Shown here: positions 5,369 to 61,774 of the stretch, piece by piece
Layout: each line of letters begins with the position of its first letter
How positions within the stretch are numbered: position 1 is the stretch's first letter
Assembly (NCBI RefSeq): GCF_028747645.1
Contig: NZ_CP118100.1
Coordinates: 3,133,366-3,197,365, forward strand
Reading direction: 5' to 3'
DNA from: Microbacterium esteraromaticum
GTDB taxonomy: Bacteria; Actinomycetota; Actinomycetes; Actinomycetales; Microbacteriaceae
DNA: 64,000 nt
Made by a program: the position numbers and the translations under genes
Notes under the pieces: model-generated
What the model was told of the DNA's origin: nothing
Databases searched by the model: none
The model's input: only the letters and a program-made list of their open reading frames with translations

Positions 5369-6492
5369 AGCCCCGCTTCCTGAGCAACCTTTTGCGCATC
5401 GCGGACGCGGAGCTTGCCGGACATGAGTTTCGGGAGCAGCGCGTCGCGGGTCGCGGCGAGGGTAGCGTTCTCGGCACGGACTGCATCCTGGCTTGCAGCC
5501 AGCGCGCGAAGGGTCTGCCCGACACGATTCGCCCGTTCACCGCTGGGAACTCTGATACGAGCGCGCCCAAGTTCGACTCGGCTGAGTTCAGTCTGCCCCG
5601 TGCTGCCCTCACCCAGCGCTTCGATGTCAGCTTCGATTGCGAGAACTGCCTGCCCGATGACCGTCGGGTCGCTCACGTTGGGGTCAGGTCTGACGATCGT
5701 AATGTGGGAGTCGACGGTTGCTTGACCGGGGAGCGTCCAGCGCGCAACGCGCCCGAGGGTTCCCTGGCCGGTTGAGTTGACCAAGATATCGCCTACTGCG
5801 AGGACCTTCTCTGCCCTCACCTTCGAGTCGTCTGTCCATCGAGACGGCCCCAGGGATACCACTTGATCCCGCACGCACTTTTGATTAAGTACCCGGGTGC
5901 CTTCTCCATCAGGCAAATAGCGCGGCGTGATCCCGCGTACGAGCACGACCGAAGCTTCGTCGACCGTCAGCTCGCGGGCGTCGTCGCGGACTGCGGCGCG
6001 CAACTCAAGCCGGGCGACGGCGGCGGCAGTGGCGGCGAGGGCGGTGTTGGCGGTGATCTTGTCGTCGAGGGCACCCAGCACCTCGGCGATTGCCTGTTGC
6101 TCGGGGAGGGGTGGAACGTGTGCGCGAAGTCCCGCGAACGACTCCCGAGTCGTTGACGGTATAGCTGATCCGGAGTCCAACCCGTTGATATCCGCCAACT
6201 GCAGTGAGTAGTACGCCCAGCGCATGTCTAGGGGTCGCTTCGGAGCGATGTAAAAAGCAGTGTCGATGACCCAGAAGTCCTGCGCTGCGTAGTGGACGCC
6301 GCGATAGGCTCCCTTGCGGCCAACGACCACACCGGGCCCCTTCGTCTGATGAACGTCCGTGAAGCCAACCGGACCATTTGTGCCATAGACGGCCACGGAT
6401 CCGCGCCCATCCCGGTAATCGCGTAGCGCCTTGCCGTACCGGAGTTCGACTACCTCTCCCCAGGTCGTGAGATCCCAGCCCACGGGTGTCAC
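5365..6492 (-). CDS. hsdS: Type I restriction-modification specificity subunit
   Basis: HsdS reads the target DNA sequence for the HsdM methylase. The 375-aa protein has the usual layout: a first target-recognition domain up to about residue 125 ending in IPSTTRESF, a central conserved helix with PPLPEQQAIAEVLGALDD, a second recognition domain at about residues 165-325, and a C-terminal helix ending in RDALLPKLMSGKLRV. It overlaps hsdM upstream by 4 nt and the membrane protein gene downstream by 4 nt. The two recognition domains differ, which implies an asymmetric bipartite target. No hsdR is found in the window. Confidence 0.95.
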   Translation of the reverse strand: MTPVGWDLTTWGEVVELRYGKALRDYRDGRGSVAVYGTNGPVGFTDVHQTKGPGVVVGRKGAYRGVHYAAQDFWVIDTAFYIAPKRPLDMRWAYYSLQLADINGLDSGSAIPSTTRESFAGLRAHVPPLPEQQAIAEVLGALDDKITANTALAATAAAVARLELRAAVRDDARELTVDEASVVLVRGITPRYLPDGEGTRVLNQKCVRDQVVSLGPSRWTDDSKVRAEKVLAVGDILVNSTGQGTLGRVARWTLPGQATVDSHITIVRPDPNVSDPTVIGQAVLAIEADIEALGEGSTGQTELSRVELGRARIRVPSGERANRVGQTLRALAASQDAVRAENATLAATRDALLPKLMSGKLRVRDAQKVAQEAGL

Positions 6493-8267
6493 GAGATACG
6501 CCGCAACTGCTCGCGCACCGAATCCGCCAGGCGCGCGGATTCGGCGAACTGGGACTCCAGCTCCGCCCGCAGACGAGCGAGCTTTTCGTCGATTGGCTCA
6601 CCGTCGTCCTCGACCTCGGCGGCGCCGACGTAGCGGCCGGGAGTCAGGGCGTAGTCCGCGGCCTTGATCTCGGCGAGGGTGGCGGAGTAACAGAAGCCGG
6701 GGATGTCGGCGTAACCGGTGCGTTTCGTCTCGCTTCGCTCGCTCAACGACCGGGAGTTGGGATCCTCGGCGTAACCGGCGCGTTTCGTCTCGCTTCGCTC
6801 GCTCAACGACCGGGGGTTGAGCGTTTCATCTCGCTGCGCTCGCTCAACGACCGGGGAGGCGGGGTCAGTAGGCGTTTCGTCTCGCTGCGCTCGCGCAACG
6901 ACCGGGGTGTCACGCCAGGCGTGGAACGTGTCGGCGATCTTGGCGATGTCTTCATCCGACAGCGCGCGCTCGGCGCGGTCGACCATGTGGCCGAGGTTGC
7001 GGGCGTCGATGAACAGCACCTCACCGGCACGCTTGCCCTTGTCCTTCGCGAAGAACCACACGCACACCGGAATCCCGGTCGAACGGAACAGCTGCGTCGG
7101 CAATGCCACCATGCACGAGACCAGATCCGACTCGACGATCTCGGCACGGATCTTGCCCTCGCCGCCCGAGTTCGACGACATCGACCCGTTCGCCATCACC
7201 ACACCGGCCTGCCCGCCCGGGGCGAGCTTCGACAGGATGTGCTGAATCCACGCATAGTTCGCGTTGCCCGCCGGTGGCACGCCGAAACGCCACCGCGGGT
7301 CGTCTTCGTTGCGCACCCAGTCCTTGATGTTGAACGGCGGGTTCGACATCACGAAATCCGCCTGCAGGTCGGGGTGCAAATCGCGAGCAAACGTATCGCC
7401 CCACCGCGGCGCCAGATTGCCGTTCAGACCATGGATCGCCAGGTTCATCTTCGCCAGACGCCAGGTGCGCTCGTTGAGCTCCTGCCCGTACACCGAGATG
7501 TCGCTGCCTTCACCGTGGTGCGCATCGATGAACTTCTCGGCCTGCACGAACATGCCACCCGAACCACACGCCGGGTCGTACACCCGGCCATGGGTCGGCT
7601 GCAGCAGCTCGACCAGCACCCGCACCACGCTCGGCGGCGTGAAGAACTCGCCACCCCGCTTGCCTTCAGCCCGCGCGAACTTCTCGAGGAAGTACTCGTA
7701 CACCTCCCCCAGCAGGTCACGCGCACGCCTACCCTCCGAGCCACCCTGCCCCTGCGCCGCGAACCGCGCCGAGTTGAACAGGTCGACGAGCTCACCCAAC
7801 CGTCGCTGATCGACGTTGTCGCGGTTGAAGATCCGCGGCAGCGTGCCCGACAGCTGTGGATTCGCCTGCATGACAGCATCCATCGCCTCGTCGATCAACG
7901 CACCCACCGGCTTCTCGGGCGCATCCATCGACGCACCCAGCCCCTTCGCGTTCTCTGCCAAGAACGACCAGCGAGCGTTCGCCGGCACCCAGAACACGCC
8001 GCGCCCGGTGTACTCATCGATGTCGTCGATGAGCTCGGCGATCTGCTCGTCGTCGTACCCATCGGCAGTCAGTTCCGTGCGGATGCCGACACAGCGCTCA
8101 TCGAAGGCATCCGACACATACTTCAGGAACACGAGACCAAGAATGACGTCCTTGTACTGCGAGGCGTCCATCGACCCGCGCAGCTTGTCGGCCGCCTTCC
8201 AGAGCGTGTCCTTCAGCTCTTTCATGCTCGACGGAGCGGTCGGTGCGGCCTTCGGTGTGCGGGGCAT
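6489..8267 (-). CDS. hsdM: Type I N6-adenine DNA methyltransferase subunit with repeat-derived insertion
   Basis: HsdM methylates adenine at the site chosen by HsdS. An N-terminal helical domain covers about residues 15-150. The methylase core carries motif I DPACGSGG (231-238) and catalytic motif IV NPPF (309-312). A C-terminal helix ends in REQLRRIS. Residues about 454-519, between HAWRD and ADIPGFCYS, are an insertion encoded by four copies of the genomic repeat that also fills 58-60 kb. Two copies read as RAQRDET and two as SLSERSETKR. The frame is kept, so the protein may still be active with a longer surface loop. A Shine-Dalgarno AAGGA precedes the ATG and overlaps the upstream stop region. 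Confidence 0.95.
   Translation of the reverse strand: MPRTPKAAPTAPSSMKELKDTLWKAADKLRGSMDASQYKDVILGLVFLKYVSDAFDERCVGIRTELTADGYDDEQIAELIDDIDEYTGRGVFWVPANARWSFLAENAKGLGASMDAPEKPVGALIDEAMDAVMQANPQLSGTLPRIFNRDNVDQRRLGELVDLFNSARFAAQGQGGSEGRRARDLLGEVYEYFLEKFARAEGKRGGEFFTPPSVVRVLVELLQPTHGRVYDPACGSGGMFVQAEKFIDAHHGEGSDISVYGQELNERTWRLAKMNLAIHGLNGNLAPRWGDTFARDLHPDLQADFVMSNPPFNIKDWVRNEDDPRWRFGVPPAGNANYAWIQHILSKLAPGGQAGVVMANGSMSSNSGGEGKIRAEIVESDLVSCMVALPTQLFRSTGIPVCVWFFAKDKGKRAGEVLFIDARNLGHMVDRAERALSDEDIAKIADTFHAWRDTPVVARAQRDETPTDPASPVVERAQRDETLNPRSLSERSETKRAGYAEDPNSRSLSERSETKRTGYADIPGFCYSATLAEIKAADYALTPGRYVGAAEVEDDGEPIDEKLARLRAELESQFAESARLADSVREQLRRIS
6708..6905. repeat. Four short-arm repeat copies inside hsdM
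   Basis: Four same-direction copies of the short repeat arm lie at about 6720-6753, 6780-6813, 6820-6854 and 6871-6905. On the + strand they read GCGTTTCGTCTCGCT then CGCTCGCTCAACGACCG with small changes. The first two are part of a nearly exact 60-bp tandem duplication (6708-6767 and 6768-6827). All keep hsdM open, but in two different reading frames of the repeat. Confidence 0.95.
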
Positions 8268-56167: not shown

Positions 56168-57205
56168 TCAGCGGCTGCCGTACTCCTCTTCGCCGAGCTC
56201 GGCGAGAATCCGATTCAGGTCCTGGATCGAGGCGAACTCGATCTTGATCTGCCCCTTGCGCGCACCCAACGCGATCTGCACGCGGGTGTTCAGACGGTCA
56301 CCAAGCTTGGTCGACACCTCGTCGAGGTATGCACGGCGGGCGCCGGCCTTCGGCTTGACGGAGCGCGCGGAATCGGTCGGAAGACTCTTAGCAGCCGCCT
56401 CGGTGGCGCGCACCGAGAGATCCTCGTTCACAACCTTGTCGGCCAGACGCTGCATCTGCTCAGGGTCGTCGACCGAGAGAATCGCGCGTGCGTGGCCGGC
56501 TGAGAGCACACCGGCAGCGACACGCTGCTGCACCGGCACGGGAAGACGCAGCAGACGGATGGTATTGCTGATCTGCGGGCGCGACCGACCGATGCGAGTG
56601 GCCAGCTCTTCCTGCGTGATCCCGAAATCCTCGAGCAGCTGCTGGTAGGCAGAGGCCTCTTCTAGCGGGTTGAGTTCCGACCGGTGCAGGTTCTCGAGCA
56701 GCGCGTCGCGCAGCAGATCCTCATCGGCAGTCTCACGCACGATCGCGGGGATCGCCTCGAGGCCGGCCTCGCGTGCGGCGCGCGTGCGCCGCTCCCCCAT
56801 GATCAGCTCGTACTCGCCACCGCTGTTGCGGCGAACAACGACGGGCTGCAGAACGCCGAACTCCTTGACGCTGTGCACGAGCTCGGCGAGGTGGTCCTCG
56901 TCGAAGTGGGTGCGCGGCTGGCGGGGGTTGGGGACGATGAGCTTCGGGTCGACCTGGATCAGGCGGATGCCCGGGATCTCGGCGAGGGCGGCGTCGGCTT
57001 CTGTGGCGGTGTCGTCTGCAGCATCCGAGGTCTTGGCCGGACGCGCGGTCTTTGTCTTGGTCTTGGCGTCCGCGGTGTCGGGAGCGACCGTCTCGGTCGC
57101 GATCTTGACGTTGCCGGGGAAGAATACGTCGACCGGGCGTTCGGTCTGATCTGCTGTCGGAATGAGCGCGCCGATGCCCCGTCCGAGTCCAGTGCGTTTG
57201 GCCAT
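56168..57205 (-). CDS. parB: Chromosome partitioning protein ParB
   Basis: ParB binds parS sites, spreads along DNA as a CTP-gated clamp, and guides origin segregation with ParA. The 345-aa protein has a variable N-terminus, the CTP-binding motifs PRTHFDEDHLAEL and GERRTRAAREAGLEAIPAIV, the ENLHRSELNPLEEA segment and the DNA-binding HTH (GITQEELATRIGRSRPQISN). The second ATG (57205) is preferred: it overlaps the parA stop (TGATG) and has AAGGGAG at proper spacing. Its targets are the many parS sites just upstream of parA. Confidence 0.97.
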   Translation of the reverse strand: MAKRTGLGRGIGALIPTADQTERPVDVFFPGNVKIATETVAPDTADAKTKTKTARPAKTSDAADDTATEADAALAEIPGIRLIQVDPKLIVPNPRQPRTHFDEDHLAELVHSVKEFGVLQPVVVRRNSGGEYELIMGERRTRAAREAGLEAIPAIVRETADEDLLRDALLENLHRSELNPLEEASAYQQLLEDFGITQEELATRIGRSRPQISNTIRLLRLPVPVQQRVAAGVLSAGHARAILSVDDPEQMQRLADKVVNEDLSVRATEAAAKSLPTDSARSVKPKAGARRAYLDEVSTKLGDRLNTRVQIALGARKGQIKIEFASIQDLNRILAELGEEEYGSR

Positions 57206-58137
57206 CATGCTCCCTTGTTCTGAGCGGATTGCTGACCCCGCTGAGCGATTTCCACTGCTGCCTCCCGATACGCGACCGCGCCGGCAGATGTGCCGTCGTA
57301 CGCGATGACGGTCTGTCCGAAGCTGGGAGCTTCTGAGACGCGCACCGACCGTGGGATCACGGCGTCGAGAATCTGCTGCGGGAAGTGAGCGCGCACCTCG
57401 TCGGAGACCTGCTGCGCCAGACGCGTGCGGGCGTCATACATCGTCAGGAGGATCGTCGAGAGGGTGAGTTCGGGGTTGAGGTGCTTCTGGATCATCTGGA
57501 TGTTCCCGAGCAGCTGGCTCAGGCCCTCGAGCGCGTAGTACTCGCACTGGATCGGGATGAGCACCTCGGTCGCCGCGGTGAAGGCGTTGATCGTGAGGAG
57601 TCCGAGCGAAGGCGGGCAGTCGATGATCACGACGTCCTTCGGGTTCTCACGCAGGTAGATCTCGAGCGCACGACGCAGGCGGAACTCCCGCGCCACCTGC
57701 GAGACAAGTTCGATCTCAGCGCCGGCGAGATGAATGGTGCTCGGTGCGCAGAACAGGTTCGGCGACTCGGGGCTCGGCTGGACGATCTCGCCGAATGGCT
57801 GGTCGTTGATCAGCACGTCGTAGATGCTGGCGGTCTCGGCGGTGTGCGTCACGCTCAATGCCGTCGAGGCATTGCCCTGCGGGTCAAGGTCGATCACGAG
57901 GACCCTTGCGCCGAGCTCGGCAAGTGCGGATGCCAGGTTGACGGTCGTCGTCGTCTTTCCGACTCCGCCCTTCTGGTTCGACACCGTGAAGATTCGGGTG
58001 TCACCGTCGAAGGAGACCTTGACCTTGCTGAGGGCTTTGCGTCGGGAGGCCAGATCAGCCAGCTCCCGCGCGAGCGGGGTATCCATCCCGAGATCGGTGT
58101 TCGGCGATGCGTTGTCGGATGGTTTCACGTGAAACAT
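57205..58137 (-). CDS. parA: Chromosome partitioning ATPase ParA
   Basis: The 310-aa ATPase moves ParB-bound origins. It has the deviant Walker A motif KGGVGKTT (56-63), VIDLDPQGNAS, and IIDCPPSLGLLT. The N-terminal about 50 residues precede the core and start MFHVKP, because the start codon lies inside a parS site. The gene reads - strand into parB with a 1-nt overlap. Repression by ParB bound at that parS is possible. The longer N-terminus is typical of actinobacterial ParA. Confidence 0.97.
   Translation of the reverse strand: MFHVKPSDNASPNTDLGMDTPLARELADLASRRKALSKVKVSFDGDTRIFTVSNQKGGVGKTTTTVNLASALAELGARVLVIDLDPQGNASTALSVTHTAETASIYDVLINDQPFGEIVQPSPESPNLFCAPSTIHLAGAEIELVSQVAREFRLRRALEIYLRENPKDVVIIDCPPSLGLLTINAFTAATEVLIPIQCEYYALEGLSQLLGNIQMIQKHLNPELTLSTILLTMYDARTRLAQQVSDEVRAHFPQQILDAVIPRSVRVSEAPSFGQTVIAYDGTSAGAVAYREAAVEIAQRGQQSAQNKGA
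58121..58136. promoter_or_regulatory. parS: parS site covering the parA start codon
   Basis: The core GTTTCACGTGAAAC is perfect. The ATG of parA is in its right flank on the - strand, so codons 2-5 (FHVK) are parS. ParB binding here could block parA-parB translation or transcription. Confidence 0.92.
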
Positions 58138-58238
58138 CGACTCCTTTCGGGACCGTCATCCACTCTAACCGAGGCAACTGTCTGCGTCGGTCATTGAGCG
58201 CGGCTCCGCCCCCACTCCCCCGGTCATTGAGCGAGGAC

Positions 58239-58253
58239 CGTTCACGTGAAACA
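58239..58253. promoter_or_regulatory. parS: Degraded parS (1-nt deletion)
   Basis: GTTCACGTGAAAC lacks one T of the core. It ends 7 bp before a long repeat arm. Confidence 0.6.
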
Positions 58254-58565
58254 CCCACCCGGTCATTGAGCGAGGAGCGCAGCACCGAGACGAAATGAGC
58301 CTGCGCCCTCGGGGGATGTTCGCTTCGACTCGCTTCGCTCGCTCAACGTCCGAGTCCTCTTGCCCGGTCATTGAGCGAGGAGCGCAGCGACGAGACGAAA
58401 TGCCAGGCTCCCGTTGCGATGCGTTTCGACTCGCTCCGCTCGCTCAACGTCCGAGTCCTCTCGCCCGGTCATTGAGCGAGGAGCGCAGCGACGAGACGAA
58501 ATGCCAGGCTCCCGTTGCGATGCGTTTCGACTCGCTCCGCTCGCTCAACGACCGTGGACACCGCG

Positions 58566-58581
58566 CGTTTCACGTGAAACA
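58566..58581. promoter_or_regulatory. parS: parS site
   Basis: Perfect core GTTTCACGTGAAAC. It is followed after 7 bp by a long repeat arm that has no matching short arm. Confidence 0.9.
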
Positions 58582-58643
58582 CCCACCCGGTCATTGAGCG
58601 AGGAGCGAAGCGACGAGACGACTGGCGACGCCCCTGCAGCCAC

Positions 58644-58659
58644 CGTTTCACGTGAAACA
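58644..58659. promoter_or_regulatory. parS: parS site
   Basis: Perfect core GTTTCACGTGAAAC, 7 bp left of the element at 58666. Confidence 0.9.
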
Positions 58660-58768
58660 CTCCCTCGGTCATTGAGCGAGGCGCGCAGCGGCGAGACGAA
58701 ATGAGCTGCACCGCCGTAGAGCGGACGTTTCGACTCGCTCCGCTCGCTCAACGGCCGTCGACACCTGC

Positions 58769-58784
58769 TGTTTCGCGTAAGACG
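58769..58784. promoter_or_regulatory. Strongly degraded parS-like sequence
   Basis: TGTTTCGCGTAAGACG differs from the parS consensus at four positions and is probably no longer bound. A decayed repeat arm follows it. Confidence 0.35.
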
Positions 58785-58920
58785 CCAGCGGCCACTGAGA
58801 GAGGGGCGCGCGGCGAACGAAACCAACCCTCGAACCGGCTACGGCTGAATCAGTCCACTCACTCACCGCCGGAACCCCCTCCCCCGTCGAACCTCGCCGC
58901 AGGCGCCCGGCGATGGCTGC

Positions 58921-58936
58921 CGTTTCACGTGATACA
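58921..58936. promoter_or_regulatory. parS: Degraded parS (1 mismatch)
   Basis: GTTTCACGTGATAC has one change in the right half. It lies 6 bp left of the element at 58942. Confidence 0.65.
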
Positions 58937-59183
58937 CCACCCGGTCATTGACCGAGGAGCGAAGCGACGAGACGAAATGAACGCCACCGCAGGGTGTGCG
59001 TTCCGACTCGCTTCGCTCGCTCAACGGCCGGAGGACTCACATACGTGTCGACCATAGAAGAAGAAACACCGCTATGTGACGAGCTGGGCCGGACTCTCGA
59101 GGAGGAAACGTGTCGACTCGCCGCGCTCGCCCAACGACGGCGGCGTCACTTCCGGCCACATTGCGGAACTCAGTACCGGCACC

Positions 59184-59199
59184 CGTTTCACGTGAAGCA
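59184..59199. promoter_or_regulatory. parS: Degraded parS (1 mismatch)
   Basis: GTTTCACGTGAAGC has one change. It lies 8 bp left of the element at 59207. Confidence 0.65.
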
Positions 59200-59339
59200 C
59201 CACCACGGGTCATTGAGCGAGGAGCGAAGCACCGAGTCGAAATCTGCGCCCCAGTAGTCGCACACGTTTCGACTCGCTCCGCTCGCCCAACGACCAAGGA
59301 ACCACTGCGCGACCTGCTTGGCGGCACTCATCCGACGCA

Positions 59340-59355
59340 AGTTTCACGTGAAACA
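59340..59355. promoter_or_regulatory. parS: parS site
   Basis: Perfect core GTTTCACGTGAAAC, 5 bp left of the element at 59360. Confidence 0.9.
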
Positions 59356-59598
59356 CCGCCGATCATTGAGCGAGGAGCGCAGCGACGAGACGAAACGTGC
59401 TCCCTCAGTAGTCGCGCACGTTTCGACTCGCTCCGCTCGCTCAACGACCGTACGGCCGGTCATTGAGCGAGGAGCACAGCGACGAGACGAAACGTGCTCC
59501 CCGCACGCCCCAAGACTCGCGTGCGTTTCGACTCGCTTCGCTCGCTCAACGACCGAGACGTCACTGCCGGACCTGCATGCCGGTCCCATCCCGACGCA

Positions 59599-59614
59599 TG
59601 TTTCACGTGAAACA
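59599..59614. promoter_or_regulatory. parS: parS site, full 16-bp consensus
   Basis: TGTTTCACGTGAAACA matches the 16-bp parS consensus exactly. It lies 5 bp left of the element at 59619. Confidence 0.95.
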
Positions 59615-59752
59615 ACGCCGGTCATTGAGCGAGGAGCGTAGCGACGAGACGAGACGTGCTCCCCCAGTCGTCGCGCGCGTTTCGACTCGCTGCGTTCGCT
59701 CAACGACCGAGGAGCCACTGCTGGACCTGCATGGCGGCACTCATCCGACGCA

Positions 59753-59768
59753 AGTTTCACGTGAAACA
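59753..59768. promoter_or_regulatory. parS: parS site
   Basis: Perfect core GTTTCACGTGAAAC, 5 bp left of the element at 59773. Confidence 0.9.
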
Positions 59769-59875
59769 TCACCCGTCGTTGAATGAGGAGCGCAGCGACG
59801 AGACGAAACGTGTTCGCTCAGTAGTCGCGCGCGTTTCGGCTCGCTCCGCTCAATCAACGATCGTGAAGGCCGCAC

Positions 59876-59890
59876 GGTTCACGTGGAACA
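59876..59890. promoter_or_regulatory. parS: Degraded parS (2 symmetric mismatches)
   Basis: GGTTCACGTGGAACA has two changes, one in each half. It lies 5 bp left of the element at 59895. Confidence 0.55.
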
Positions 59891-59975
59891 ACGCCGGTCA
59901 TTGTGCGAGAAGCGCAGCGACGAGACGAAGTGTGCTCCCCCAGTACTCGCGTACGTTTCGACTCGCTGCGCTCGC

Positions 59976-60287
59976 TCAACGACCAGAGGTGCCACCGCGG
60001 CGGAGAGCGCGCTCGCGTGCGCTCCAGCCCTTGATCGCGTCGTAGCCGCCCTCCATGAACGCCAGGCGCTTCGCGTGACTCCACCCCTGCATTCGCTTCT
60101 CGAGAGCAAACGCCTCATCAATGCGATCGAACTCGGCCCACCAAACCAGCGTGACCGGTAGCCGGCACGACGTGTAGTCACTCCCCATTCCCTGCGCGTG
60201 AGTCTGCACTCGAGCATCAAGGTCTTTCGTGCTGCCTACGTAGAACGTGCCGTCCGAGCAGCGGAGAACATAGGTGTATCCGATCAT
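59976..60287 (-). CDS. Solo GIY-YIG endonuclease domain protein
   Basis: The 103-aa protein is a minimal GIY-YIG nuclease of the UPF0213/YhbQ type. It has YTYVLRCSDGTFYVGSTKDL (the GIY-YIG core as YTYVL...YVG), the catalytic Arg in DARVQTHAQG, and the metal-binding Glu in FALEKRMQGW. It lies inside the parS/repeat array. Its stop codon is the TGA in the short repeat arm at 59984 (protein end TSGR), so the repeat trimmed or sealed its 3' end. Solo GIY-YIG proteins may act in DNA repair or mobility. A link to spread of the repeats is a hypothesis. Confidence 0.93.
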   Translation of the reverse strand: MIGYTYVLRCSDGTFYVGSTKDLDARVQTHAQGMGSDYTSCRLPVTLVWWAEFDRIDEAFALEKRMQGWSHAKRLAFMEGGYDAIKGWSARERALRRGGTSGR

Positions 60288-60345
60288 GGTCGGACACTAT
60301 GCGCACCGGGGAGTACGGCGATGTCGAGATCACGGGAGCTGTGGA

Positions 60346-60361
60346 TGTTTCACGTGAAACG
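60346..60361. promoter_or_regulatory. parS: parS site (no attached repeat element)
   Basis: Perfect core GTTTCACGTGAAAC, about 59 bp upstream of the GIY-YIG start. No long arm follows, unlike the array copies, so it may be an original site. Confidence 0.9.
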
Positions 60362-60405
60362 TGGAGTTGGGGAGAGCGAAGACTCCGGGCGGTCTAGTGG
60401 TGTGA

Positions 60406-60550
60406 GCGTTTCGTCTCGCTCCGCTCGCTCAACGACCGAGGGAACTCAGCTCGAGCACTAGCGTTTCGTCTCGCTGCGCTCGCTCAACGACCGGGGAGAG
60501 CTCCGCTCGCGTACTCGCGCTTCGACGAGTTGCGCTCGCTCAACGACCGG
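60406..60550. repeat. Three short-arm repeats reaching into rsmG
   Basis: Three same-direction short arms lie at about 60406-60438, 60461-60494 and 60517-60550. The last contains the rsmG stop codon. They use the GTTTCGTCTCGCT variant also found in hsdM, not the GTTTCGACTCGCT variant of the array. Confidence 0.93.
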
Positions 60551-61184
60551 GGACAGCGGGGGTCGCGCGGACGCGAGCGCGGAACACACGCGTCGGCTCG
60601 GCGAGCACTCCCTCTCCGAGCACTTCCACTGTGGCGTCCGACACCTTGAACTTCTTGAACACCTTCTGAGCGGCATCGATCTCGGCCGGCACGTTGTGCC
60701 CCTTCAGCAAGATCAACTCACCGCCGTCCTTCACCAACGGAGCAGTAATCGGGATCAACGTGCGAAGTGCACTCACCGCACGTGCCGTTACGGAATCGAA
60801 CTCCAGCCCGACATCCTCGCCACGAGCGCGCATGACACGTACGTTGTCCAGCCCCAGAGCCTCGACCTGCTCCGTCAGCCATGCCACACGACGCTCCATC
60901 GGCTCGATCAGCGTGAAATGGACATCCGGACGAGCAATCGCGAGCACAAGGCCCGGCAACCCCGCACCGGAACCGACATCGGCAACCGAGCCCTGAAACA
61001 GCGGCGCAGCGATCGCAGAGTTCAGAACATGACGCGTCCAGATGCGCGGCAGCTCGAGCGGGCCAATCAAACCGCGCGTCTCCCCCTCCGCGACCAGCGC
61101 ATCGGTGAAACGACGCGCAAGATCAATGCGTGCGCCGAAGAGCTCCGCGGCGACGGAGGGTTCAGATTCGGGGGTGTGGGACAT
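60540..61184 (-). CDS. rsmG: 16S rRNA (guanine-N7) methyltransferase RsmG
   Basis: RsmG (GidB) methylates G527 of 16S rRNA. The 214-aa protein has the family layout: LARRFTDALVAEGETRGLIG, LPRIWTRHVLNSAIAAPLF, SAM motif VADVGSGAGLPGLVLAIARP and ARAVSALRTLIPITAPLV. The last residues VPGR and the TGA come from a short repeat arm, and the ATG directly abuts another arm upstream. Its own Shine-Dalgarno is weak (GAGACGAA), so the repeat may affect expression. It lies between parA and jag as in most actinobacteria. Confidence 0.97.
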   Translation of the reverse strand: MSHTPESEPSVAAELFGARIDLARRFTDALVAEGETRGLIGPLELPRIWTRHVLNSAIAAPLFQGSVADVGSGAGLPGLVLAIARPDVHFTLIEPMERRVAWLTEQVEALGLDNVRVMRARGEDVGLEFDSVTARAVSALRTLIPITAPLVKDGGELILLKGHNVPAEIDAAQKVFKKFKVSDATVEVLGEGVLAEPTRVFRARVRATPAVPGR

Positions 61185-61238
61185 TTCGTCTCGCTTCGCT
61201 CGCTCAATGACCGGAAAAGGGGCCCGCTCAATGACCGG
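61182..61238. repeat. Short-arm repeat at the rsmG start, with fragment
   Basis: A short arm (ATTTCGTCTCGCT, then CGCTCGCTCAATGACCGG) covers about 61182-61214, its first bases being the rsmG start codon. A second fragment GCCCGCTCAATGACCGG lies at 61222-61238. Together they form most of the rsmG leader. Confidence 0.9.
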
Positions 61239-61263
61239 AGACCGGGGCGGCTATGCGCATCAC

Positions 61264-61279
61264 CGTTTCACGTGAAACA
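61264..61279. promoter_or_regulatory. parS: parS site between rsmG and jag
   Basis: Perfect core GTTTCACGTGAAAC, directly touching the jag stop. No long arm is attached. It is the parS nearest to oriC in this window. Confidence 0.92.
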
Positions 61280-61774
61280 TCACCGACGGGTGATGACCGT
61301 GTGGCGGTCTGCTCCCTCGCCGTAGGACTCCGAAACCAGCCCACGCTCCGAGGCGATGTCGTGCACGACCTTGCGCTCGTAGCTCGACATCGACGGCAGC
61401 GATGCCTGGCTGGCACCACCGTCAAGCTTCACAACCGCAGCGTCAACCAGGGCCTCGAGCTGCCGGCGACGCGTGTCGCGCGAACCACCGATGTCGAGGA
61501 TCATCCTCGAGAACGAGCCCGTCTTGTTCTGCACGGCGAGGCGAGTGAGCTCCTGCAGAGCCTGCACGGTGTCGGGGGCCGACAGTACCGAAAGCCCCTC
61601 GCTCTCGGCCTCAACCGAGACATATGCCCGACCCTGCCGCACATCGAGGTTCAGATCACCGTCGATGTCGGCGATATCAAGCAGCTCCTCGAGAAAGTCT
61701 GCTGCGACATCCCCTTCACGCTCAAGATCCTCCACCGAGGGAACCGACGAGGTCTTCACGTCTTCAACAGTCAT
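61280..61774 (-). CDS. jag: Jag/KhpB-type RNA-binding protein (KH + R3H)
   Basis: The 164-aa protein has a KH-like domain (residues about 20-95; AADFLEELLDIADIDGDLNL) and a C-terminal R3H domain (QALVDAAVVKLDGG, then LPSMSSYERKVVHDIASERG). It binds RNA and is encoded with yidC in most bacteria (SpoIIIJ-associated protein). The N-terminal Jag domain of Bacillus is missing, as is usual in actinobacteria. Its start overlaps the yidC stop by 1 nt. Confidence 0.95.
   Translation of the reverse strand: MTVEDVKTSSVPSVEDLEREGDVAADFLEELLDIADIDGDLNLDVRQGRAYVSVEAESEGLSVLSAPDTVQALQELTRLAVQNKTGSFSRMILDIGGSRDTRRRQLEALVDAAVVKLDGGASQASLPSMSSYERKVVHDIASERGLVSESYGEGADRHTVITRR

Follow-up and report, generated by a model that had tools for sequence, protein, structure and literature searches.

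The region around parA in Microbacterium esteraromaticum was analysed in a window of 64,000 nt (NZ_CP118100.1, positions 3,133,366–3,197,365, forward strand), and all coordinates below are 1-based positions in this window. On the minus strand it contains parB (56168..57208; Pfam ParB_N, HTH_ParB and ParB_C), parA (57205..58137; AAA_31), rsmG (60540..61184; GidB) and jag (61280..61774; R3H). Between parA and rsmG lie a plus-strand REPIN-like array (58189..59984), consisting of 15 long arms (≤4 mismatches), inverted short arms and 10 parS-like sites, and a minus-strand gene for a stand-alone GIY-YIG protein (59976..60287). Consensus parS sites are found close to parA, the arrangement of a ParABS system.

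Sites were scored against GTTTCACGTGAAAC, which we take to be the parS consensus. A search of the whole 3,197,365-bp chromosome, allowing one mismatch, revealed eight perfect and two one-mismatch sites, all inside the window, and three more degraded sites (2, 2 and 3 mismatches) were located between parA and the GIY-YIG gene. This recount agrees with the initial annotation, which had reported eight perfect and five degraded sites, 13 together, in about 3.2 kb. The ten parS-like copies of the array are perfect and joined to a long arm in five cases (58567..58580, 58645..58658, 59341..59354, 59600..59613 and 59754..59767) and degraded in the other five (58922..58935 and 59185..59198, 1 mismatch each; 58239..58252 and 59876..59889, 2 mismatches each; and 58770..58783, 3 mismatches, preceding a decayed long arm). 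The remaining perfect sites lie within the first codons of parA (58122..58135, no arm), 59 bp upstream of the GIY-YIG gene (60347..60360) and at the 3′ end of jag (61265..61278, no arm). The initial annotation had regarded these three as arm-free and possibly original and had placed their starts at 58121, 60346 and 61264; the sites are real, but each start was one base low. Two of them, at 58122 and 61265, do look original: among five relatives without REPs between parA and jag, parS is present at the jag 3′ end in all five and at the parA start in four, with a mismatch in one relative in each case. The third is the site adjoining the GIY-YIG gene.

Every one of the ten parS-like sites (≤3 mismatches) in the interval 58138–59975 is situated 7–10 bp to the left of GTCATTG, or 6–9 bp from the GG of a long arm. 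By chance, 0.64 of ten would be expected at this spacing, and none of 20,000 random placements yielded ten. The initial annotation had counted nine sites at 5–8 bp. Its proposal that parS was joined to a palindromic element and that the pair was then copied in tandem is supported. Since units of the array resemble tandem duplicates, the ten parS-arm junctions do not represent ten independent events. Five of the 15 long arms (≤4 mismatches) have no parS. Genome-wide, the long arm (34-mer, ≤3 mismatches) occurs in 11 copies, every one in the window, and the short arm in 22, with 13 in the window and nine elsewhere; four short arms fall within an hsdM-like frame. Outside the array, two single short arms occupy the interval between the GIY-YIG gene and rsmG (60409..60492, minus strand), and another, with 2 mismatches, is at the rsmG start (61184..61212, minus strand). 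Two inverted REPs with a spacer, capable of forming a hairpin as in REPINs, were found in four of five units tested, where pairing of the long arm with the inverted short arm beat shuffled sequences (z −2.2 to −4.7; −3.7 for the plus-strand unit at 59361..59452); the fifth unit did not (z −0.3).

The gene at the end of the array, which is absent from the initial annotation, encodes a predicted GIY-YIG nuclease of 103 aa (PF01541, E = 1.5e-15), and its stop codon lies within a REP. Residues Y6, Y16, G18, R26, H30 and E63, which we presume to be catalytic, are kept in at least 98 of the 99–103 alignment rows having a letter at these positions. Sequence search of the PDB with this protein gave two matches only, 1zg2 (E = 8e-12) and 1ywl (E = 4e-7), both of UPF0213 type; phage relatives amounted to six weak records.

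REPs are common bacterial repeats, and RAYT is the enzyme tied to them. RAYTs are nearly absent here: the RAYT domain PF01797 was detected in one of 198 Microbacterium genomes, one without the REP-A core, and was not found in the present genome at E ≤ 1e-5. RAYT was accordingly rejected as the mobiliser of these REPs. Comparison with strain GN8-5 revealed different REP copy numbers and no clean boundaries at the 437/441-kb locus and a gapless alignment at the 738-kb locus; neither a target-site duplication nor a clean empty site was found at the one locus compared, and hsdM was not found in the GN8-5 stretches compared. Array units of the two strains interleave and give no indication of strain-wise concerted evolution, and duplications specific to each strain are also present.

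The association of gene and repeat was examined in the 198 genomes, with E ≤ 1e-28 defining close GIY-YIG homologues and E ≤ 1e-6 any GIY-YIG match; genome-wide repeat counts covered REP-A and REP-B. Three GIY-YIG subfamilies are present across the genus, each bordered by its own palindromic repeat. Of the 45 genomes that have a close homologue, 43 contain the exact REP-A core (the exceptions being G104 and G200), as do 55 of the 153 others (Fisher p = 8e-14, kinship ignored). At least five REP-A cores occur in 36 of 42 genomes with an A gene versus 22 of 156 (p = 3e-18), and REP-B in 21 of 24 genomes with a B gene, leaving three without a match, versus 7 of 174 (p = 2e-19), kinship being ignored in both tests. 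No crosswise pairing was detected in the 198 genomes (B gene with REP-A, p = 0.35; A gene with REP-B, p = 0.80). REP-A enrichment is weak with C genes (10/21 vs 48/177, p = 0.07) and was not seen for subclade A2 (4/9 vs 54/189).

Pairing is also subfamily-specific at the gene borders, as judged with motifs A, B and C that were defined after inspecting the loci. Within 250 bp, motif A accompanies 39 of 42 A genes (motifs B and C, none), motif B 23 of 24 B genes (motif A, two) and motif C all 21 C genes (motif A, two); two of the ten A genes residing in the parS gap (L084 and L177) have no motif A at this distance. The repeat stands forward 5′ and inverted 3′ of the gene at 39/44 type A, 17/28 type B and 19/22 type C loci. 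Outside the parS gap, the exact core lies within 300 bp at 19 of 31 A-type loci, with 0.25 expected. On a 104-row gene tree repeat type changes three times, or 11 times when motif-less rows form a state of their own, against a shuffled mean of 51.5. Similar GIY-YIG/repeat pairs are present in some Alphaproteobacteria, and no paper linking GIY-YIG to repetitive extragenic palindromic sequences was found in the open-access literature.

These data make the GIY-YIG nuclease the likely partner of the REPIN-like repeat. The nuclease could, however, be a passenger landing in REPs rather than their driver. Homing endonucleases of GIY-YIG type are known, and REPs might be mere landing sites for one, multiplying through another enzyme or through recombination; 19 genomes carry at least ten REP-A cores but lack a close A gene, 11 of them being without any GIY-YIG match at E ≤ 1e-6, and the repeat can therefore persist without the gene. 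Against this stand the possession of a separate repeat by each subfamily, with A and B not associated crosswise, and a repeat layout around the gene that mirrors the layout of REPINs, and we consider the homing explanation unlikely.

The initial annotation had further claimed a repeat family carrying parS. The exact REP-A core is present in 2,100 copies in 98 of the 198 genomes (up to 150 per genome), but only nine genomes were found to contain a perfect parS with the GGTC end of the repeat no more than 30 bp after it, at 27 places in all. Clusters of parS without arms exist in relatives. A search of relatives for the parS-arm unit thus shows independent occurrence of the two at genus level, the outcome that the annotation itself had named as contradicting its claim, and the view that the REP includes parS as a fixed component is rejected at that level. 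The parS-REP pattern was seen at 21 loci of named genomes, eight Actinobacterial, eight from Burkholderiales (Limnohabitans and relatives) and five other. The Burkholderiales loci were dismissed as coding coincidence, being at a conserved place within a long reading frame, and four of the other five are also in a long open frame. Among the titles listed from the open-access literature, none concerns a repeat that carries parS. A fixed upstream parS as a regulatory device of the GIY-YIG gene was rejected as well: the site is 58–68 bp 5′ of the gene in seven of the ten genomes of its clade and scattered elsewhere.

Multiplication of ParB loading sites, the consequence drawn in the initial annotation, is not borne out, the number of parS sites being ordinary. 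The eight perfect sites compare with a genus median of 6 (range 1–14), and 59 of 190 parS-bearing genomes have at least eight. The mean is 6.9 in the nine genomes with parS beside a REP and 6.3 in other parS-bearing genomes (Mann-Whitney p = 0.41), and genomes without the exact REP core reach equal counts (8 in G002, 10 in G010). An adaptive expansion of the centromere, in which selection for ParB loading multiplied parS and the REP served as a duplication handle, would fit with the location of every perfect parS of the genome in this region, with the intact half of the array copies and with the nine perfect sites of GN8-5, but given these counts and the decay of the other half it appears quite improbable. 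That a recombinogenic non-coding gap collects any local repeat, gene and parS being irrelevant, is highly improbable, for although the five relatives examined have no REPs in the gap, tandem REPIN clusters with flanks are described in the portion of PMC3116915 drawn on here and few arrivals suffice (gap location as a label changes six times on the gene tree), 37 of 108 GIY-YIG loci have at least two perfect parS within 2.5 kb and gene-repeat pairing is highly specific.

We conclude that the array probably consists of REPIN-like hairpins clustered locally in tandem and belonging to a GIY-YIG/REP selfish system, with parS as a passenger. Such a two-part system would pair the gene for a small stand-alone GIY-YIG nuclease with a palindromic repeat specific to it, the common order being repeat > nuclease gene < repeat, and the nuclease would recognise and cut this repeat, thereby spreading it. 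The ten A genes residing in the parS gap form one clade (SH-aLRT 96, 104-row tree), and one system probably entered the parS-rich parA-rsmG gap in the ancestor of these ten sampled Microbacterium genomes. Unequal exchange or slippage would then have duplicated repeat units together with flanking parS, making parS a passenger sequence, and ParB presumably treats the copied parS like any other loading site. More broadly, and with confidence somewhat above even, we propose that stand-alone GIY-YIG nucleases constitute a second, RAYT-independent class of REP-propagating enzymes, that in Actinobacteria and Alphaproteobacteria each subfamily co-evolves with a palindromic repeat of its own, and that a bacterial centromere houses one of these systems and is reshaped by it. 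If true, this would account for abundant repeat families without a known mobilising enzyme; subfamily-wise pairing allows a direct test of what moves such repeats, and selfish repeats could reshape a centromere region without raising the parS count.

In the portions of the REPIN/RAYT (REPtron) literature drawn on here, an inverted REP pair with a spacer forms a hairpin, the enzyme gene lies beside its own repeat type and tandem clusters can include flanking sequence (PMC3116915, PMC3733652). The Microbacterium system shares these three features, but its partner is a GIY-YIG nuclease rather than a tyrosine transposase, RAYT being confined to a single genome of the 198, and its copied flank is parS. 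CGTC REPs, a large class that according to the part of PMC3733652 used here "apparently lack a dedicated transposase", are likewise abundant without a known RAYT, but the Microbacterium repeat is a different one. MITEs are marked by terminal inverted repeats, a target-site duplication and a transposase acting in trans; the units here have inverted arms, and neither a duplication nor a clean empty site was found at the one locus compared. The nuclease resembles stand-alone UPF0213-type proteins (1zg2, 1ywl) in size, sequence family and catalytic residues; in contrast to Bacillus yazA, which has no such flanks, its gene is bordered by cognate palindromic repeats. Finally, the sites conform to chromosomal parS clusters beside parA in consensus, place and number, and differ from them in that some parS are duplicated inside repeat units.

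The window is taken from a 3.2-Mb genome in a single contig and covers its final 64 kb. Whole-genome and local searches confirmed the eight perfect and five degraded parS sites counted between parA (57205..58137) and jag by the initial annotation, and a whole-chromosome search located all perfect and one-mismatch parS sites of the genome in this interval. The constant spacing it described also held: between parA and the GIY-YIG gene 10/10 parS-like sites lie 6–9 bp to the left of a long arm, compared with 0.64 expected under random placement. Five of the 15 long arms have no parS. In the array (58189..59984) pairing of the long arm with the inverted short arm gives a hairpin in 4/5 units tested, matching the layout of REPINs. 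The long arm (up to 3 mismatches) has 11 copies in the genome, all in the array; nine of the 22 short arms lie outside the array region, at four places. The per-base mismatch rate, compared as raw rates, is 0.064 for array parS versus 0.112 for the arm. Four short-arm REPs (6723-6903) were observed within an hsdM-like frame (6489-8267, minus strand; named by eye), which remains unbroken and gains REP-encoded residues, e.g. SLSERSETKR.

The array also contains a gene absent from the initial annotation. It encodes a stand-alone GIY-YIG nuclease of 103 aa (59976-60287, minus strand; PF01541, E 1.5e-15), and its stop codon falls within a REP. The one other GIY-YIG match in the genome is within a 676-aa frame, presumably UvrC. 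GIY-YIG homologues (E ≤ 1e-6) are present in 84/198 Microbacterium genomes and 2,100 exact copies of the REP core in 98/198.

We examined 108 GIY-YIG loci, including seven from other genera. They sort into subfamilies, each with a distinct flanking palindrome: GGTCRTTGAGCGAG...CGAGACGAAACG (motif A), TCGAGTAG...TATCGAGA (motif B) and CTGAGCYTGTCGAAG (motif C) flank genes of subfamilies A, B and C, respectively. With motifs defined post hoc from the examined loci and subfamilies hand-listed off the tree, motif A was found within 250 bp of A genes in 39/42 rows (motifs B and C in none), motif B of B genes in 23/24 (motif A in 2) and motif C of C genes in 21/21 (motif A in 2). A forward repeat upstream and an inverted one downstream are present at 39/44 (A), 17/28 (B) and 19/22 (C) loci by motif type; L092, L098, L101, L104 and L105 are clean cases. 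Such a locus has the REPIN layout, with the gene replacing the spacer. On the 104-row gene tree repeat type changes 3 times when motif-less rows are excluded and 11 times when they are treated as a state (shuffled mean 51.5). One of the 3 changes is due to L109, a locus carrying mainly a fourth motif.

Genome-wide REP counts agree with this specific pairing. Among the 198 Microbacterium genomes, kinship ignored, at least five REP-A cores are present in 36/42 genomes with an A gene versus 22/156 without, REP-B in 21/24 genomes with a B gene versus 7/174 without, and the exact REP-A core in 43/45 genomes that carry a close homologue (E ≤ 1e-28) versus 55/153 others. No crosswise A/B association was detected in the 198 genomes (p 0.35, 0.80). 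Outside the parS gap, an exact core lies no more than 300 bp from 19/31 A genes (0.25 expected). Several counts, however, go against the pairing: at least 10 REP-A cores were counted in 19 genomes that lack a close A gene, and 11 of these 19 have no GIY-YIG match of any kind; the exact core is missing in 2/45 close-homologue genomes and REP-B in 3/24 B-gene genomes; and seven genomes with REP-B are not represented by a B gene in the tree set. Three of these seven (G017, G062, G101) contain a GIY-YIG fragment in a parS gap. Subclade A2 showed no REP-A enrichment (4/9), and C genes a weak REP-A link (p 0.07). RAYTs, the tyrosine transposases usually tied to REPs, are nearly absent, the domain being found in 1/198 genomes, one without the REP-A core.

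Both the array and the repeats at 437/441 kb differ in copy number between this strain and GN8-5, a strain of the same species and its nearest relative among the genomes compared; thus, the repeats turn over. At 437-442 kb (L075), compared with L196 of GN8-5, a differing number of REPs was observed beside a shared flank that occurs twice.

The number of parS sites is ordinary, and the proposed multiplication of ParB loading sites was not borne out: genomes with parS beside REPs are not richer (mean 6.9 vs 6.3 perfect parS, p 0.41). Perfect parS number 1–14 per genome in 190/198 Microbacterium (median 6), clusters are the norm in this genus, and in five relatives whose parA–jag gap contains no REPs, parS sites are scattered across it. 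At least two perfect parS were found within 2.5 kb of 37/108 GIY-YIG loci (11/42 A rows, 23/24 B rows and 0/21 C rows, the remainder being fragments not long enough to enter the tree). One clade (SH-aLRT 96) accounts for ten of these 11 A rows; in the eleventh (G133) the nearest parS is 2 kb away. This single clade, together with only 6 changes of the parS-gap label on the gene tree, argues for few GIY-YIG arrivals in the gap. Some two dozen further Microbacterium genomes have, in the same parS gap between parA and rsmG, the B-type gene with its own repeat (e.g. L118-L123, L125, L128, L130, L134-L136, L142, L146). A separate observation concerns Limnohabitans and related Burkholderiales, in which a perfect parS occurs at a conserved place within a long reading frame (L003, L005, L007, L010, L014, L015, L018, L022).

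GIY-YIG homologues at E ≤ 1e-10 were found in 14/248 genomes of the order; the seven loci from other genera have motif B in three cases and a fourth palindrome in one. Thirteen plasmid records with a GIY-YIG relative were found and eight examined. Palindromic repeats flank the relative on both sides in two Methylobacterium, Sinorhizobium meliloti (pSymB; L206 1300-1460) and Shinella (L209 1400-1500), and on one side in Sphingomonas parapaucimobilis; no flanking palindromes were detected at the Sphingomonas paeninsulae, Cupriavidus and Bacillus subtilis yazA loci. The S. meliloti flank, which may be the RIME element, has at least 1,587 matches across 171 plasmid records, exclusively from Rhizobiaceae genera, and the Shinella flank has 116 matches across 66 plasmid records. 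L206, L209 and the wide spread of these repeats on Rhizobiaceae plasmids suggest that the gene-repeat pairing extends outside Actinobacteria.

The GIY-YIG protein may recognise its own repeat and cut or nick it, and repair or re-insertion of the cut repeat would lead to its spread. In the parS gap, repeat units would have been duplicated in tandem, with parS carried along. In Pseudomonas, REPINs are known to form tandem clusters in which flanking sequence is included (PMC3116915). The GIY-YIG/REP system would work like a REPtron (REPIN plus RAYT). A defining feature of RAYT REPtrons was looked for in it and not found, and the system is therefore not classed as one. No paper linking GIY-YIG genes to REPs was found among the matches listed for the open-access literature.
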